Virus record (IMG/VR): IMGVR_UViG_3300045972_000062
Span: 1 to 62,336 of that record
DNA length: 62,336 bases
Strand: one strand, 5' to 3'
From: a virus
Shown piece after piece: positions 4,956-60,525 of the stretch. Under the pieces are notes generated by a model, which searched no databases, was not told the DNA's origin, and worked only from the letters and a program-made list of their open reading frames with translations. Within the stretch, counting starts at the first letter, position 1; every line of letters starts with the position of its first letter. Both the position numbers and the translations under genes were made by a program.

Positions 4956-7900
4956 ATGAACTCTAAACAGCTAGTAAATAAAGGTTCTCATTTAGATAAT
5001 GATGAATCTTTTCAGCCGAAAGACACGTTTAGACATGCTATGAATGGCATGTTGATAAGTTATAATGATGGTAATTATTCATGGCAAAACTCGATAGGAA
5101 ATAAGGTTTCTTTTAATGTAGGACTTAATATTATCGGGTGGTGTAATCTTAGAGAAGATTTAATTATTTTCTCTACTGATGAAGTTATTGGAGCTATTGA
5201 TAAAGTCGTATTTAATGGACTAGGAGAAGCTACGGTTTACCCTCAATATGCTTTAGATGATTTTGGATTCTCACAATTACACCCGATCGTTAATGAATGT
5301 GAAGGCTATTACGAAAGCCAAAAAATTCAGAGGGTTTATTGGACTGACTTTAAGAATCAGTTTAGATCTTTAAACTTAAGCCAAATAAAATATCTGCACA
5401 CTAATGAGCCGAATATAATTACAGTTTCTTTTGTGCCTAATAAACAATATGTGGTAGTTTCAGGAAGCGTAGTTGTCCCAAGTGGAACTTATACTAAAGG
5501 GCAGTCTTTTTCTTCTCCTACGACTCCTATAATTTATGATCTTACAAATACTGTTATTGCTGAATATTTATCGGCAAATAGCATGAACTCTAGTCCTGTT
5601 GTGACTTGGGGAGATATAGGATTAAATCAGATACTTCAAAATCAAGGCACAGTAGGATATGGTCAATATTTTTTCTGTTATCAATATTATTCCTTAGATG
5701 GGAGAGTTACTAACTGGTCTCCGTTAAGTAATGGTATTGCAATGATAAATATAGGTAATACTTATCAAGGTCAGCAAGGAGGTCAACAATTAGGATCTGG
5801 AATCACAGGAACCGACATTGGGAACGGCAATTCAAACAATGCTTTTGAGCTTAAGATTACTAATGTAGAAACTATATACGATCATATAAGATTTGGGGTA
5901 TTTACCTCTTCAGAATATAATACTATAAATCCTGACGGGTTCTCATTTTCTGAAGTAGCTACATCTCCTGATCATAATAAAGAGCAGTTAGTAATTTACT
6001 TCGGAGACAAAACTCATATTAAAAAAATAAGTCTTGACGATGTATTGATAGGTAAAGCTGCAATAGAGAAGGTTAAAACTTTCTGTATTACTCAACGCTA
6101 TTTAATAGTAGCTAATACTGTAGAAAGTGGAGAATTTAACAATACTAACGTCACCGCAACTATTACTATAAGTCCAGAAGTGTACGAGATAGTTTCTGAT
6201 GCTAGAGGTAATGTTTATAGTCCAAATGGAGATTTGACTGGACACGATAAAATGGCAGGAGTATCTAGTGATATTTATGTAAATCAGTGGTACAAAGTTA
6301 AAAGTTTGACAATTTCTTACAATTCTATCAGTTATTCAATTGGAGATCTGTTTAAAGGAATAGTAGGAATTACACATTATGTAGGAAGCGGTTCGGTTGT
6401 TCCTGTAATAAGAAAAAAGAAATACAAGAAATTTGACAACTCTTACGTATATGATGTAATTGAAATTCCTAATGATTATCTTGACTACAAAAGTCCTATT
6501 GTTTCTGAAAATGCAGTAGGATATTGGGGAGGGGAGACGTATCGGTTTGGATTATTGCCGTATGATAAGCAAGGAAGAGCAATGCATGTTAGATTTGGTG
6601 CCGATATTAAGTTCCCAGAAAGGAATATTCAAGGAAATACTTACCAACTAAATGGTAATTCTATGCCATGCACTGCTTCAAGTATGGTCAATGACGCTTT
6701 AGGTAACGGTACTTATTCTCAATCTAATTTAAACATAATGTCAGCCTTAATTGATGGCATTGACATTACTGATATTATAGATCAGATTTCAGCTATAAGT
6801 ATTGTGAGATGTAGTAGAGATGGTCAGGAATCTACCTTATATGAAGGATTATTGCAACCTTTAGTTAGGGTTACTGAGGAGTTTCCTGCACCAACAAATG
6901 AAGGTCATGTGTTATATCCTGCTGAAACTCATTTTTCTGATGGGTTTGAAAGGTTTTCTCATAGTAGTTACTTTGAAAGGAGACCTTACTGTTATGCTTT
7001 GTATTCTCCTGAGAGGATGTTTTATTTTAATTCAGACATTCCTTCCATAGGAGACTCTTTGAAGATAAATGGTTTTTTTGAGCAAATAAATCCATTAAAT
7101 AATGGACTTGGGCAGAATACTGCATTCTCAAATTTTAATCAGAAATTTTATAAAGAATGCAATCCTATAGACAATACATTATCTATCGGTAAGGTTAATG
7201 AGGTAAATATAGAAGCCGGATTTCAGGAAGTAGATTCAGCTAAAAACATATTGAGTGGATCCAACCATAGTGCTAATATGCAGGTGCCTTTATTGGATGT
7301 AGGAAATCTAAACAATGACACTATATATTCTTATACTACAGAATTACTATGGAGTAGGGCTTCTATATTGCCAGGTGGCGATGCTGGTTATTTTAAAAGA
7401 TCAACTATTACTAGAGCTTCCATATTAGAGACCAACTATGGAGAGGGCAGTCTGTCTGCAACTTTCCCTAATGGATTTGTAGATCAACAGGGAGATTATA
7501 GAGATAAGACTACTGTTACTTACGTCCAATATAAAAGACGTAACGCAAACTTATATGGAGGAACTACTGACGAAGCTAAGGCTTTGAATTTGTATTATAC
7601 TATTGGTCATTATCTACCTATAACTACTGAGTTAAAAAATGATATTATAAATTCCAATGGAAGGTATGTTTTAAATGGATTGCAGGTTTTTGGAGGGGAT
7701 TGCTTTATTAATTTATTCGATTTTAATTTAGCAACTTATGACTCTAATTGGGAGAAGATTACATCTCCTATTATAGGAGGCAACACATATTACGATTCAT
7801 GGCAGCTAGAAGTTGTATTCCCTGTTCAATCTTCTGTAAATACAGCTTTTAGGCAAGGATTCCATACTGCTAAAGATAGGATGTGGGGTAAGGGTATTTC

Positions 7901-29708: not shown

Positions 29709-29735
29709 TAAGCCCCAATTAAGGGGCTTTTTTAT
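29709..29735 (+). terminator. terminator between convergent units
   Basis: AAGCCCC, AATTAA loop, GGGGCTTTTTTATTT forms a strong terminator for the plus strand. The same hairpin begins within three bases of the minus-strand stop at 29732, so it also offers a stem for transcripts coming from the right. It marks the meeting point of the two large transcription units. Confidence 0.88.
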
Positions 29736-30163
29736 TTAACAACTTGCATAAATTTGAATAATACTTGGTCGTAATATTCTCTAAAAGTTCTATCGGTAGT
29801 GTATAGGCTATTAAAAGTATCTACAGTTCTCATACATGTAGAATGATTCCTATTTACATATAGACCTATGTAGTAATAAGGAATGTTTAACACTTCCCAC
29901 ATTATCTTTACGGCAATAAATCTTGAGTACATTAGCTCTGGTTTATTCTTACGTATGCGGAAAATATCTTCAATAGATATCTTACATGTCAATGCTGTAA
30001 TTTTTAAAAGCATATCTACATTAAGTTGCTCGGTAGTCTTATTTTGTATTACATAGCATACTTTAACTTCTACTCCAAGTAGATTAGTCAAATCTATTGC
30101 AGCTCTTTCTGTTAAGCGTTCAGCTTTTGCCAAATCTTCTCGTTTAAATTCCGTATTCTTCAT
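29732..30163 (-). CDS. DnaA domain IV-like DNA-binding protein
   Basis: The 143-residue protein has a C-terminal half that reads like the duplex-binding domain IV of DnaA. RFIAVKIMWEVLNIPYYYIG, then NRNHSTCMRTVDTFNSL, matches the helix-turn-helix and the DHTTV-type signature loop that contacts the DnaA box (here NHSTC). The AAA+ domain is absent, so it cannot act as a full initiator. It could steer or block host DnaA, or mark the phage origin. It is the last gene of the minus block and overlaps the upstream gene by 20 bases. Confidence 0.7.
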   Translation of the reverse strand: MKNTEFKREDLAKAERLTERAAIDLTNLLGVEVKVCYVIQNKTTEQLNVDMLLKITALTCKISIEDIFRIRKNKPELMYSRFIAVKIMWEVLNIPYYYIGLYVNRNHSTCMRTVDTFNSLYTTDRTFREYYDQVLFKFMQVVK

Positions 30164-46629: not shown

Positions 46630-47166
46630 TTAATCCTCCTCTTTAATTATTTCGTAGAAATCCTCTACGTAGTCTTTATTGTACCTATCCTCTTGCTCGA
46701 ATTCATCCATAAGCAAGTCTGCGTCTGTTTCATTATTCCTTGTCGCTATAACCTCTCCAGTTTCACGGCAAGCTATTTTATAAATTGATATTGTTTTTAA
46801 AATTTCTACAAAACTTTCCGGAAAATGAATATTTTCTACATTTTTTGCTCTTGAAAATAAAGGAGCTATTTCTTTGGGAGTATATCCTGCGATACCACAA
46901 CCTATATCAGTAACAAGAAATGTTAAATCTTTATTTTCACTAGCAAATGTTATAAATCTATTAACACATCTACTCATATATGAGTATCCATCCATTGTAG
47001 GTATTGCAAAGCATTTACCTTGCAATCCAAAACCTTGTCCCCATATAGCTCCCCAAAGCATCGCTTGTTTTGCTGCTCCTGAAAGATGATTTCCTTTCTT
47101 ATTTGAACCAAAAACAAATACTTCATTGTCTTTTAGCTCTGTTATATTTTTAGGGCTAGTCTTCAT
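46630..47166 (-). CDS. macro-domain-like phage protein (A1S_2505 type)
   Basis: Start at 47166 (MKTSPKNITELKDNEVF), overlapping the repeat-gene stop by 11 bases; 178 residues. EVFVFGSNKKGNHLSGAAKQAMLWGAIWGQGFGLQGKCFAIPT gives the ligand loop, and FLVTDIGCGIAGYTPKEIAPLF a second glycine-rich strand, as in macro-fold phage proteins. Macro domains bind or remove ADP-ribose, so this could undo ADP-ribosylation used by host defence. Activity is inferred. Confidence 0.7.
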   Translation of the reverse strand: MKTSPKNITELKDNEVFVFGSNKKGNHLSGAAKQAMLWGAIWGQGFGLQGKCFAIPTMDGYSYMSRCVNRFITFASENKDLTFLVTDIGCGIAGYTPKEIAPLFSRAKNVENIHFPESFVEILKTISIYKIACRETGEVIATRNNETDADLLMDEFEQEDRYNKDYVEDFYEIIKEED

Positions 47167-48265
47167 CTTTATATTCCTCAAATTTCCCGTTAATTAATAT
47201 ATACTCCGTATTTTCTTTTATTTCAATGCCGTCTACTTTAGCTAATTTAGCGTCAATAATTTCGTAGTTTTCATTTTGTTCAGACAAGCAAATCCAAGAG
47301 CCTAATATTCCTTTTGCTCTATTACTAAATCCCCAACCTAAAGAAATTCCATTATTTCCAGAATTAGAAGCTACACTATTATTTCCAGAATTAGAAGCTA
47401 CACTATTATTTCCAGAATTAGAAGCTACACTATTATATCCCGAATTAGAAGCTACACTATTATATCCCGAATCAGAAGCTACACTATTATTTCCAGAATT
47501 AGAAGCTACACTATTATTTCCAGAATTAGAAGCTACACTTTTATTTCCAGAATTAGAAGCTACACTTTTATATCCCGAATTAGAAGCTACACTATTATCT
47601 CCAGAATTAGAAGCTACACTATTATATCCCGAATCAGAAGCTACACTATTATTTCCAGAATTAGAAGCTACACTTTTATTTCCAGAATTAGAAGCTACAC
47701 TATTATATCCCGAATCAGAAGCTACACTATTATTTCCAGAATTAGAAGCTACACTATTATCTCCAGAATTAGAAGCTACACTATTATTTCCAGAATTAGA
47801 AGCTACACTATTATCTCCAGAATTAGAAGCTACACTATTATATCCCGAATTAGAAGCTACACTATTATCTCCAGAATCGTGATTTGTGTTATTATTAATT
47901 TCGGCTTTTTTCTCAATATATTCTTTAGCAATTCTAATTAATGTATTAAAGTCTACTTCTGTAACTATTTTAATTATAGATGAAGATATTTTAGAATCGT
48001 CAGATCCTTTGTCAATTTCTCCACTACATTCACAAATAGCAAAAATAGAAGTTGTAGCATCGTAGTAGTTTAGAATATCAAGAGGATTTTCGCAAGAATG
48101 AAAGCCAAATTCAGTACATCGTACAGCTTTATCGGTTGTGTAAGTTTCGCCTACTTTGTACTGAAAATCTCTACACGTCCAATCTTTGTTAAAACCCTTG
48201 TAGGTTATTAATTTAGGAGTTTCCTTAACTTTTTTAAGTCTGCCAACTTTTTTTTTAGTTTCCAT
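47156..48265 (-). CDS. DUF7666-like protein with 9-residue tandem repeats
   Basis: The 369-residue protein starts with LITYKGFNKDWTCRDFQYKVGETY and CTEFGFHSCENPLDILNYYD, the conserved DUF7666 N-terminal domain. About 20 copies of a 9-residue repeat (xNSVASNSG) follow from about residue 130 to 305, then a short globular end. The repeat probably forms a solenoid. The first repeat residue is Asn, Asp or Tyr. Function unknown. It lies upstream of the macro-like gene. Confidence 0.6.
   Translation of the reverse strand: METKKKVGRLKKVKETPKLITYKGFNKDWTCRDFQYKVGETYTTDKAVRCTEFGFHSCENPLDILNYYDATTSIFAICECSGEIDKGSDDSKISSSIIKIVTEVDFNTLIRIAKEYIEKKAEINNNTNHDSGDNSVASNSGYNSVASNSGDNSVASNSGNNSVASNSGDNSVASNSGNNSVASDSGYNSVASNSGNKSVASNSGNNSVASDSGYNSVASNSGDNSVASNSGYKSVASNSGNKSVASNSGNNSVASNSGNNSVASDSGYNSVASNSGYNSVASNSGNNSVASNSGNNSVASNSGNNGISLGWGFSNRAKGILGSWICLSEQNENYEIIDAKLAKVDGIEIKENTEYILINGKFEEYKDED
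47345..47880. repeat. 27-base tandem array
   Basis: About 20 units of 27 bases encode the NSVASNSG(N/D/Y) repeat. Units fall in clear subtypes: CCC at the Gly codon goes with Tyr, and Asp for Asn in the SNSG part always goes with a following Tyr. A Lys replaces Asn in a few units. The mixed order shows shuffling of unit types. Confidence 0.93.
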
Positions 48266-52454: not shown

Positions 52455-53593
52455 TATAAGATTTACTAATCTTAATTTCGGTGGCAGAAAAGAACAGAGA
52501 AGCAAACATACTACATAACATATAAGAATAACATAAACACAACAGGCGAAGCCTGAGCGAAGCGAAGAAACAAAACAAGTTACGCAACTATTACAAGCAT
52601 ACTCAAGCAATAGCCTATATAAGCTTTGAAAACAACTAACAGCAATCAATAGTATTATATAGGCTTTCATGTGCTACATAACTACACGAATATGTGCAAT
52701 ATAATAGCACAATTCTAGCCTAATTACACTGCATTACAAGCGTTTACGTATCTATCCAATAGAATACACTATCAAGCAAAACAGCCGCCTAAAACAAGCA
52801 ACAAAAACCATAAAAACACGTAAAAAATCGCGCTACCCATACAAGCGGCTCTTGGAACTGCTTATTTGCGCTGTTGTTCTCTGACTATTTATGAACGTTC
52901 GGCAGTCAATTACGGCAGTAGATTTATGTAGATTTAGGTCAGATTATGGCACAGGAATGCTACAAAAGGCGTTTAACCGTCAATTCGGGGGTATTTTATG
53001 GGTATTTTTGCGAAAAGTGTAATTATGGAGTTTGTTGGCTAGCAGATAGTTAGTCTTGTTCGTTCCCCGTGGAGTATCAAGTCTAAAAAATGGAAAGTGT
53101 AATTACGAATTGAGTGCATTTGTAGGCTATTGCAGGCTATTGTATTGGTTTGACTTGTAGGATCGCAAGCCTTGTAGGTTAGCTTAGTGTTGTAGGTTGA
53201 TAGATGATATAAAGTTTAGTTGTGTTGCTTTGGTTGCGTCTGCTAACTATTGAACGCCGAACACTAGCAACGGCAAGCACTCGACTGCGCCGCCACCACG
53301 TTTATAAATTGCAAGCCTTTCAAATTTATATGCCGGCATGCTGAATTAATTCCATTCCAAATAAGGAAGCAACAAGCATACAAGAGGGTAACGCTTGAGA
53401 AAGTCAAGAAAAAGTATTGCAACCCGTTAATTTTTGCCTGAGAACTAAAAAACACTCCCCCGTACACCAAGCATCGGGTGGAAATCTCCGGCTGCGCCTC
53501 CGTCACTATGTAGGCATAGCAATAAAAATTTTTTATTTTATTTTATTTTTTTGAGTTGCATTTGACCGTTCAATGACAGCTGTAAAAATTTTT
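52455..53593. other. 1.1-kb non-coding region
   Basis: No credible gene is found here on either strand. It is richer in G and C than the rest and holds a 10-base inverted repeat (GCCTATATAA at 52613, TTATATAGGC at 52655). It also holds repeated AAAGTGTAATTA (53016, 53094), repeated GGCTATTG (53124, 53135) and three TTGTAGG copies near 53156-53197. Near its right end two T-rich tracts (53524-53552, 53584-53612) repeat. It may be a replication origin or non-coding RNA locus. Confidence 0.6.
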
Positions 53594-57964: not shown

Positions 57965-58636
57965 TTAGTTTTTAATTGTTAATTTAAAATTTTCGGTAAA
58001 ATCAAACATTCGCCTATGTCTTTCATCTTTTGATTTTTTTTGCTTAAGCATGTTTATATTTAATATTTGCAATCTATTCATTAAGTCTAACTCTTGTTCT
58101 GTTGCTAAATCTCTCTTACCTCCCTTAACTTCTCCAAAAACTAACTTGTTTAAATAATTTGCTTCCTTAACAAACAATAAAGGGTCTGGCTTACTTCCGT
58201 AACAATATTCATAACGATTAGTCATAACATCACACATCTCTTTATAATGATCTCCTGCTTGATGCCTAAAGTCTATCAAGTTATCATATACCCATTTTAT
58301 TACCTTAACTTCAAATTCAGGAGATAACCAAAAGCAAAACTTAACAAACAAATAAGGATGAACCCAAGTAGCCCCATATCTTCCACGCTTAGAATCAATA
58401 ACTTCCAATTGTAGGGAATCCCCTATATTTAAAAGTTCATTTTTCAAAGCTTCAATAAACCCCTGAGTGCCTTGATTGCTAAAAAATTCCGCAAGAACTT
58501 TATTCGTAATGTTTTCGTTTTTGTTGTTATTAAAGTATTGCAGCATCTCTGTTGCATTGAAGAAAGAATCAGAAGTCCTTTGAGAAACAATAGCATCATC
58601 AAAGTTTCTTTTCATTATATGTTCAGTCTTTAACAT
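57965..58636 (-). CDS. KilA-N domain protein 3
   Basis: The 223-residue protein has FFNATEMLQYFNNNKNENIT, RGRYGATWVHPYLFVKFCFW, and LSPEFEVKVIKWVYDNLIDFRHQAGDHYKEM. These are the KilA-N landmarks also seen at 28842 and 53594. The start at 58636 keeps the shared extension; the ATG at 58615 is the alternative. Its promoter lies at 58659. KilA-N proteins bind DNA. Confidence 0.8.
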   Translation of the reverse strand: MLKTEHIMKRNFDDAIVSQRTSDSFFNATEMLQYFNNNKNENITNKVLAEFFSNQGTQGFIEALKNELLNIGDSLQLEVIDSKRGRYGATWVHPYLFVKFCFWLSPEFEVKVIKWVYDNLIDFRHQAGDHYKEMCDVMTNRYEYCYGSKPDPLLFVKEANYLNKLVFGEVKGGKRDLATEQELDLMNRLQILNINMLKQKKSKDERHRRMFDFTENFKLTIKN

Positions 58637-58658
58637 TTGTTTTAGTTTTAATTATACA

Positions 58659-58689
58659 CAAATATACATACAAATAAACTTAGAAGCAA
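58659..58689 (-). promoter_or_regulatory. sigma-ABfr-type promoter of KilA-N 3
   Basis: On the minus strand TTG, 20 bases, TATATTTG. It starts the right-hand minus transcript and lies 22 bases before the ATG at 58636. Confidence 0.85.
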
Positions 58690-58757
58690 GAATAAATAAA
58701 CATTTAATGTTAAATAAATTAAAAAATGTTAACATATAAAAATAACGTGTTAAATAT

Positions 58758-58788
58758 TTGCACAATTAAAAAAATTTCTTTTACTTTG
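58758..58788 (+). promoter_or_regulatory. possible promoter of the structured RNA
   Basis: TTG at 58758, 20 bases, then TTACTTTG, one mismatch from TAnnTTTG. It points right into the structured RNA region. Start would be near 58795. Confidence 0.5.
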
Positions 58789-58877
58789 TTTCAATTATTA
58801 AAGAATGCTGTATTAGATTTCATATCTTTTAACGAGGGTCTTTAGTAATTAACATGAACAAGAAATAAGAAACCTTT

Positions 58878-59250
58878 GGACGGGCTCAGGAGTAAGATTA
58901 TATAGGACAATGTCCAATAGAATAAAAAGCCTGATAGAGCCCGTCCAAGTTATCAGGCTTTGTTATTTTAGTCAAGTTTGGACGGGAAGAACAGTAACGT
59001 CAGCGAATATTGATTAGTAATCTCCTACTGGGATAGCGACAGGAGTACCCGAATACAAGTGAGAACGGGAAAGCGGATTGCGTGCCATCTAACACGTTTA
59101 GCTCACATAAGAACCGAATTATATGGATAGGTTCTTCGAAGCGATAGACCCGATGCCTACAAGCATTGTGACAGCTAAAGCAGGAAGTATCAAAGTTGAA
59201 ATTTAACAGTTTCGGCTTTGGATTTCCTACGCCTTCTCTCCTGAGCCCTC
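58878..59250 (+). ncRNA. candidate large structured RNA
   Basis: No coding frame fits here. The segment is closed by GGGCTCAGGAG (58882-58892) and CTCCTGAGCCC (59238-59248), 11 perfect pairs 350 bases apart. Inside are local hairpins AAGAACC/GGTTCTT, CTCCT/AGGAG, GACG/CGTC, ATGC/GCAT and GTGAG/CTCAC. Strand is uncertain; the plus strand is favoured by the possible promoter at 58758 and a small open frame at 58854. It does not match tmRNA, RNase P or group I intron signatures that I can see. Confidence 0.65.
58926..58970 (+). terminator. terminator-like hairpin in the structured RNA
   Basis: AAAGCCTGATA (58926-58936) and TATCAGGCTTT (58951-58961) form 11 pairs followed by GTTATTTTA. The hairpin competes with the 58878-58887/58937-58946 stem, so it may act as an attenuator. 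Confidence 0.55.
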
Positions 59251-59253
59251 CTC

Positions 59254-59703
59254 CTTAAGCATAGCAACAAAAAACAAAGAGTATCCCTAGAATCTCCTGA
59301 GTTGTTATATAGTACGCACGAGCGTATACACGCATGACGCACGCACGAGGAAACCGTAACTAGACAACATTACCTCCCAAAAATAAAAAGATAGTAATTC
59401 TTAAATGTTACGCTTTAAATTAAATTCGAGGGATAATTTATATGCCGTAAATAAGAAAAGCAAATAGATGCGATTTAAGACGTTAAAATAGTTTAGATGA
59501 CAAAAGTATTAACTCTAGTACTAAAGTCTTAAAATTAGCCATCCTGATTGCTAAAAAAGGATATTGTGTAAATTTAATTGATGCCGGAAAATTAAAATAA
59601 GTTCTAGTTTGTTCGAGAAAGTAAGAGAATCTCGTAATTTTACGTCTAGGTTACGTCTAGATTTTTATGCCGTAAAAGAGAAAGGCAGATGAAATGTCAC
59701 CTG
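59254..59703. other. non-coding stretch between the structured RNA and the tRNA-like element
   Basis: No gene is seen in these 450 bases. It holds another CTCCTGAG (59296-59303) able to pair with the 58885-58892 segment, a GC-rich TACGCACGAG...CGCATGACGCACGC run near 59313-59350, and a TTACGTCTAG duplication (59639-59660). The first and second of three ATGCCGTAAA repeats are at 59442 and 59667. A minus-strand terminator hairpin (GGCAGGTGA/TCATCTGCC) lies at 59683-59704. Confidence 0.5.
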
Positions 59704-59902
59704 CCAACGATAGGACTAGAACCTACGACCAAAGGTTCTAACCAACTGAACTACGTTTTTATCTCTCGAACGTTGGATCCACTTTCCTTTTGCAATTTTC
59801 GGGTTTGCTAACCTTATCAATACATTTTTCGTATTGCTAATGCTAAGGTAATTAATATTTGTTTACGAAATCGATTTTATGACATTTATTTAATGCCGTA
59901 AA
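59442..59902. repeat. three ATGCCGTAAA repeats about 225 bases apart
   Basis: ATGCCGTAAA occurs at 59442, 59667 and 59893, spaced 225 and 226 bases. On the minus strand each copy (TTTACGGCAT) directly follows a T-rich run, and at two of the three a GC hairpin precedes it. The regular step suggests repeated RNA units. Confidence 0.65.
59704..59776 (-). tRNA. tRNA-like element with a D-arm motif in the anticodon position
   Basis: On the minus strand 73 nt are closed by CCAACG/CGTTGG. There is a T-arm (GTAGG TTCTAGT CCTAT) next to the acceptor as usual. A textbook D-arm, GTTC AGTTGGTTA GAAC, stands where the anticodon arm should be, and an ACGTT/AACGT hairpin precedes it. Either the element is a rearranged tRNA, or the anticodon arm was lost and replaced. 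A UGG reading (Pro) is possible but weak. A terminator follows. Confidence 0.5.
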
Positions 59903-60061
59903 TAAAAAAGAGCCACCGGATGGCAGCTCTTGAAGTTGAATTGAATTGTAAACAAATAACAGTGATGAGGAAGGATCGGAACGAACGAATAAATTAAGTT
60001 CATCAAAGATAAGAAATTATTACTAAACTATCAATATTTATTAAATTTAACAACAATAGAC
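59777..60061. other. non-coding stretch before the plus-strand genes
   Basis: No gene is seen. It contains the third ATGCCGTAAA copy (59893) and a hairpin AAGAGC/GCTCTT (59908-59931), which on the minus strand is followed by TTTTTTATTT and so looks like a terminator. The rest is AT-rich with no clear signal until the promoter at 60062. Confidence 0.5.
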
Positions 60062-60091
60062 TTGTAATTTAAATATAATTCACTATCTTTG
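60062..60091 (+). promoter_or_regulatory. sigma-ABfr-type promoter of the HAD operon
   Basis: TTG at 60062-60064, 19 bases, TATCTTTG at 60084-60091. It ends 20 bases before the ATG at 60112 and drives the plus-strand genes at the right end. Confidence 0.85.
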
Positions 60092-60111
60092 GTATAACAA
60101 ATTAAGTTTAC

Positions 60112-60525
60112 ATGAAAAGAAAAGTTGCAGTTGATTTTGATTTGACAATCTGTGTGTCAGAACATAAAGATGGAGTTACGTATATCATTAGAGATAATGA
60201 AGGAGCTAAAGAAGTTGTTAAGAAGCTTATTGATTCCGGTAATGAAGTTTTTATTTGGACTGCAAGAGATAGCAAGAATATGCCGGAAGTAAATAAGTGG
60301 GTTAAAGATTCAGGATTAAAGTTTGCCGGAATAAATGAAGATCCAAAAGCAACAACCGATTCACGTAAACTAAGATTTGATATTCTTATTGACGACAAAT
60401 CATTAGGATGTCCATTGAAGTATGATCGTAAGATAAACAAGGATGGAGAGTTTGAAAACTCAGGAGAACCTTACGTAGATTGGGAGCGAGTTGCAAGTTA
60501 TCTTAAACAAGAAAAGTATTATTAA
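60112..60525 (+). CDS. HAD-superfamily phosphatase-like protein
   Basis: The 137-residue protein has VAVDFDLTICVSE (DxDxT nucleophile motif, Asp8 and Asp10), IWTARDSKN (motif II) and ILIDDKSLGCP (acidic motif IV). This is a compact HAD hydrolase without a large cap. Phage HAD enzymes act on nucleotide or sugar phosphates, or on the 3' phosphate in RNA repair. It is first in the right-hand plus operon. Confidence 0.75.
   Translation: MKRKVAVDFDLTICVSEHKDGVTYIIRDNEGAKEVVKKLIDSGNEVFIWTARDSKNMPEVNKWVKDSGLKFAGINEDPKATTDSRKLRFDILIDDKSLGCPLKYDRKINKDGEFENSGEPYVDWERVASYLKQEKYY

Follow-up and report, generated by a model that had tools for sequence, protein, structure and literature searches.

What does a large gene-free gap near the end of a crAss-like phage sequence encode? 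The window analyzed here is the whole 62,336-nt stretch of IMG/VR viral record IMGVR_UViG_3300045972_000062, 62 kb from an uncultured crAss-like phage, encoding a Crassvirus muzzle protein and a tail ring protein. Its genes lie on the plus strand up to 29 kb, mostly on the minus strand to 58.6 kb, and on the plus strand again from 60.1 kb. The gap at 58637–60111 (1.47 kb), with divergent operons on both sides, houses the region of interest, which the original prediction described as a gene-free, candidate large structured RNA closed by a long-range helix. No open reading frame of at least 60 amino acids occurs within 58637–60111, so the region is indeed gene-free, and a protein product was rejected because no long frame is present. 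The G+C content of the structured region (0.436) exceeds the genome mean (0.331) and falls in the top 1.3% of windows. The most fitting interpretation of this unusually stable region is a novel orphan phage RNA in which two long helices compete.

The genes around the gap have features of their own. A KilA-N protein gene (57965–58636, minus strand) shares 56% identity with proteins in two other phage contigs (L002 and L003, the latter at 5001–5654) and looks mobile, given its different neighborhood in L002. An RNA ligase gene (PF09414; 56194–57165, minus strand) is near the structured region and a tRNA-like relic and possibly serves RNA repair. Farther away, the gene at 47156–48265 (minus strand) encodes a DUF7666 protein in which nearly identical SNSGxNSVA repeats follow one another over a long stretch. 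On the other side, the nearest plus-strand gene begins at 60112, 860 nt past the closing helix; by eye, it has a promoter-like site, TATCTTTG, at 60083–60090, and minus-strand terminator-like hairpins lie between the helix and this gene.

The closing helix, P1, is formed on the plus strand by the arms GGGCTCAGGAG (58882–58892) and CTCCTGAGCCC (59238–59248), which are perfect complements at exactly the predicted positions with 345 nt in between. P1 has a pair probability of 0.99 and is lengthened across one bulged C by the pairing of GGA (58878–58880) with UCC (59249–59251), the latter extending its 3′ strand. A second helix, P1alt, is a perfect 12-bp pairing of TTGGACGGGCTC (58876–58887) with GAGCCCGTCCAA (58937–58948) and has six bases in common with P1. 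Written as plus-strand RNA, its 5′ strand is UUGGACGGGCUC, which excludes P1 because GGGCUC is common to both helices, and its 3′ strand is GAGCCCGUCCAA, which makes up most of the loop of the P2 hairpin.

Where at least five local hairpins had been claimed inside the closing helix, at least seven are predicted, all on the plus strand. The small hairpin GGAC-AAU-GUCC (58905–58915) has a pair probability of 0.99, and its GGACNNNGTCC motif occurs nowhere else in the window. Hairpin P2 (58919–58969) has an 11-bp core (58926–58936/58951–58961) and a 14-nt loop and is followed by a T-rich stretch, making it terminator-like by eye. Next are P3 (58969–59016), a weakly supported P4 (59022–59045, pair probability 0.58), and a GCGUG/CACGU hairpin (59080–59097, pair probability 0.84). 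P7 (59097–59179) is a branched domain in which the stem UUUAGCU/AGCUAAA encloses hairpins at 59109–59136 and 59151–59168; the pair probability of this outer stem is context-dependent, at 0.5–0.8. The last element before the 3′ strand of P1 is P8 (59182–59228), a 21-bp hairpin with one bulge and a pair probability of 0.95–0.98. An additional tertiary contact may be available, as a second UUGGACGGG copy on the plus strand (58978–58986) is a potential partner of the P2 loop sequence CCCGUCCAA (58940–58948). We infer that the two could form an H-type pseudoknot in competition with P3, an arrangement that, with loops of 3, 2, and 16 nt, we take to be sterically possible. The window's plus strand has two occurrences of TTGGACGGG and one of CCCGTCCAA, and each of them falls in the structured region.

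Chance folding of a G+C-rich patch is one rival explanation, and no relatives displaying constraint were found. It is nevertheless hardly credible in view of the computed stabilities. The whole window was surveyed for perfect inverted repeats with arms of 9 bp or more lying 60–500 nt apart (n = 197). Ranked by stacking energy, P1alt is first (−23.2) and P1 second (−22.0), while the third repeat reaches −18.2. A helix as stable as P1alt arose in 0 of 2000 dinucleotide shuffles, whether the local region or the gap was shuffled. The folding z-score of 58878–59251 is −5.2 on the plus strand and −3.4 on the minus strand, as compared with a mean of −0.4 (sd 1.0, minimum −2.7) for 124 control windows, which are mostly coding. 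A separate folding test returned −4.2 for a slightly longer plus-strand stretch and −1.8 for the minus strand.

The difference between strands is most evident in individual helices. The stability gain of the plus over the minus strand is 6.2 kcal/mol for a hairpin 5′ of the core (58795–58848; −10.5 vs −4.3), 7.9 kcal/mol for P3 (−9.9 vs −2.0), and 12.2 kcal/mol for P8 (−20.3 vs −8.1). All three are stronger as plus-strand RNA because they use G-U pairs, which account for 13 of the 114 pairs in the core. The strand-specific folding excess expected of a structured noncoding RNA is found both in the plus-strand z-score of −5.2, set against the control minimum of −2.7, and in the wobble asymmetry. 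When the region is folded as single-stranded DNA, the structure is also strong (z = −4.9).

The upstream sequence offers a plausible origin for such a transcript. A Bacteroidota-type promoter-like site, TTTG-N20-TTACTTTG, lies on the plus strand at 58757–58788 with one mismatch to TTTG-N20-TAnnTTTG. The motif is common (21 occurrences in the window vs 16.7 expected), and the site alone is weak evidence; it is its position directly upstream of the structured region that carries the argument. From what we take to be the usual behavior of Bacteroidota promoters, a site ending at 58788 would start a transcript at about 58795. The 5′ terminal hairpin, UUAUUAAAGA/UCUUUAGUAA (58795–58848, plus strand, pair probability 0.92), begins at this predicted start. 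Beyond 59251, no clear plus-strand terminator was found, which weighs against an RNA gene here. The region very probably encodes a folded RNA of roughly 450 bases, with a transcript of perhaps 460–650 nt and a closed core (58878–59251) of about 375 nt. A possible second domain at 59259–59445 on the plus strand would be closed by GCAUA/UAUGC and UAUCCCU/AGGGAUA (59282–59288/59429–59435) at pair probabilities of 0.82–0.96; it is unexceptional in stability, with a z-score of only −1.5, and may or may not be on one transcript with the core. The structured-RNA reading of the original prediction is partly supported and stands as the best one available, including the absence of an Rfam match. It had overlooked the rival helix P1alt, the upstream promoter-like site with its 5′ hairpin, the difference between the strands, and a possible second domain.

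Several minus-strand elements occupy the remainder of the gap. A degenerate tRNA-like relic (59757–59706), 0.45 kb downstream of the core, scores 27.6 bits, just under the Rfam cut-off, and lacks much of the anticodon arm. It is immediately followed by a terminator-like hairpin (59705–59684), and a further hairpin of this kind is found at 59931–59908. A 22-nt repeat centered on ATGCCGTAAA is present in three copies (59438–59459, 59663–59684, and 59889–59910) spaced 225 and 226 nt apart, at least two of which adjoin minus-strand terminator-like hairpins. At 59900–60035 on the minus strand, about 100 nt separate a promoter-like TATCTTTG site from a terminator-like hairpin, an arrangement suggestive of a possible small RNA gene.

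The order in which the helices form was calculated for growing transcripts starting at 58795, at equilibrium and excluding pseudoknots and kinetics. In all prefixes ending from 58950 to 59240, P1alt is present at a probability of about 0.9 at each length and P2 is absent; from 59250 on, P1 reaches 0.99 and P2 0.97. By this calculation, P1alt would protect the strand made first and prevent the terminator-like P2 from closing before the whole RNA has been made. The proposed sequence of events is as follows. An independent structured noncoding RNA would be transcribed rightward from the promoter-like site at 58757–58788, starting at about 58795. In the nascent RNA, the strand 58876–58887 would be captured by 58937–58948, forming P1alt and thereby preventing P2. 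The emerging 3′ end (59238–59251) would then take the 5′ strand, such that P1 shuts and P2 arises, and the freed P2 loop may bind the second UUGGACGGG copy. Once complete, the RNA would be trans-acting during infection, either as a stable scaffold or as a ribonucleoprotein, as is thought for ROOL and GOLLD. Of this account, computation supplies the helices and their improbability, the strand asymmetry, and the folding order; transcription, the pseudoknot, and the trans role are inferred. That the region is an independent, P1-closed structured noncoding RNA that folds P1alt first and acts in trans is, on balance, probable. The more specific proposal of a new class of phage RNAs with self-timed folding is tentative and less likely than not. 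In it, a strong decoy helix would occupy the 5′ strand and block the terminator-like hairpin during synthesis, giving way upon 3′ completion to a closed, pseudoknotted particle active in crAss-like phage infection.

The same two helices could instead belong to a cis-acting attenuation leader, with P2 as the terminator, P1alt as the antiterminator, and a protein, a metabolite, or the ribosome selecting between them. P1alt and P2 are mutually exclusive in the fold, a T-rich stretch follows the P2 core, and P1alt prevails at every nascent length, all of which such a leader would accommodate. However, the nearest plus-strand gene is 860 nt past P1, with what by eye is a promoter-like site of its own, minus-strand terminators intervene before it, the 14-nt loop of P2 is long, and P1, 350 nt away, would be left without a role. 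An attenuation leader is an unlikely account of the locus. A DNA element, i.e., a replication origin or a packaging or recombination site whose inverted repeats act as cruciforms or protein sites, is doubtful as well, if a little less so. It would suit a gap between divergent operons near a GC skew reversal, the strong single-stranded DNA fold (z = −4.9), and the lesser folding of the minus strand (z = −3.4). The phage also encodes a DnaA_C-like protein (DnaA C-terminal-like DNA-binding; 29732–30163, minus strand), which scores below the Pfam cut-off. Against this, several helices are G-U-dependent and weaker by 6–12 kcal/mol on the other strand, and the gap has no exact DnaA box, only one single-mismatch box at 58652. 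A sharper composition switch is located elsewhere, in the gene-free stretch 52460–53290. There, strand composition changes abruptly near 52850, next to a plus-strand ORF of 115 amino acids that has no Pfam match, and this stretch is possibly a replication origin.

A further alternative is an RNA without present function that has decayed or is mobile, for example a piece of an intron or an RNA derailed from a tRNA array. The degenerate tRNA-like element nearby and the tRNA-bearing structured elements of related phages are consistent with this idea. Yet no intron or other Rfam family is matched at E-values up to 10, and perfect G+C-rich helices of 11 and 12 bp would be unexpected after decay, rendering this origin quite improbable.

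The searches for relatives are consistent with the orphan status of this RNA. The statement that no known large phage RNA could be recognized was borne out, as Rfam gave no match at the gathering score or at E-values up to 10, and blastn against phages and plasmids returned no relative. Alignment of the muzzle protein covered 164 crAss-like stretches in IMG/VR, the best of which are only about 25–35% identical; therefore, no close relative of the phage was found in that database. Over about 50 related viral records, neither blastn nor the covariance model R1 gave a convincing match to the RNA. The covariance model R2 recovered the window itself, as expected, and one weak match within a muzzle-gene stretch, which was dismissed as chance. 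Both models are built from a single sequence, such that an empty result is weak evidence of absence. Three pattern scans of IMG/VR (0, 22, and 5 matches) provided no homologue: the 22 matches are at chance level, lying mostly in reading frames or being repeated copies, and in the other 5 the similarity does not extend beyond the pattern. With the flanking proteins as anchors, only the KilA-N gene was found, in a different neighborhood and with the RNA absent; the RNA is also absent from the syntenic divergent region of phage G009 (52401–53846). At the level of sequence, it thus appears to be an orphan among phages, plasmids, the approximately 50 related viral records, and IMG/VR.

Comparison with described systems places the candidate beside known RNAs rather than within them. 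No match to the Rfam models of group I or group II introns, or of tmRNA, 6S, or RNase P, was obtained, ARAGORN detects no tmRNA, and no reverse-transcriptase domain indicative of a retron is found by Pfam among the nearest genes tested. Intrinsic terminator/antiterminator switches similarly employ two exclusive helices with one common strand, one of which frees a hairpin before a T-rich stretch. They differ in that the candidate has a third partner 350 nt downstream that closes the RNA, and no controlled gene directly follows. The tRNA-bearing element of related crAss-like phages (L139–L142) is likewise gene-free, structured, and beside tRNA-like elements, yet it has no sequence similarity to the candidate and sits in a different gene neighborhood, upstream of the helicase operon. 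This element, represented in the related phages G003 and G046 at G003:C1:48865–49371 and G046:C1:48986–49612, comprises a 5′ hairpin that is conserved, tRNA-like units (tRNA-Gln or others), a variable middle, a conserved TTAAATCCATGGCGG block, and a T-run; in the G046 copy, Rfam matches only the tRNA. Within the searches made, no large structured RNA from crAss-like phages has been described.

ROOL is a large, multi-helix, phage-encoded RNA of unknown function that is often close to tRNA genes, and GOLLD is a phage-encoded RNA near tRNAs with long-range helices and pseudoknots (PMC12286853). ROOL is further characterized by a homo-octameric nanocage. Like ROOL, the candidate is large, multi-helix, and phage-borne, but it has no Rfam match to ROOL at the gathering score or at E-values up to 10, and the tRNA in its vicinity is only a relic (27.6 bits vs a gathering score of 29), with ARAGORN finding none. 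Like GOLLD, it is phage-encoded with long-range helices and a possible pseudoknot, near what is here only a tRNA-like relic, whereas many GOLLD RNAs exceed 800 nt, as compared with about 375 nt for the candidate core, and the Rfam model of GOLLD (conserved 3′ region) again gives no match. Because it is phage-borne and near a tRNA-like element, the candidate resembles ROOL and GOLLD in lifestyle by analogy, but it belongs to neither. As large phage RNAs of the ROOL and GOLLD type are still without a known function, an orphan crAss-like phage RNA with two long helices that can be distinguished by probing would offer a compact system for studying the folding and role of such RNAs.
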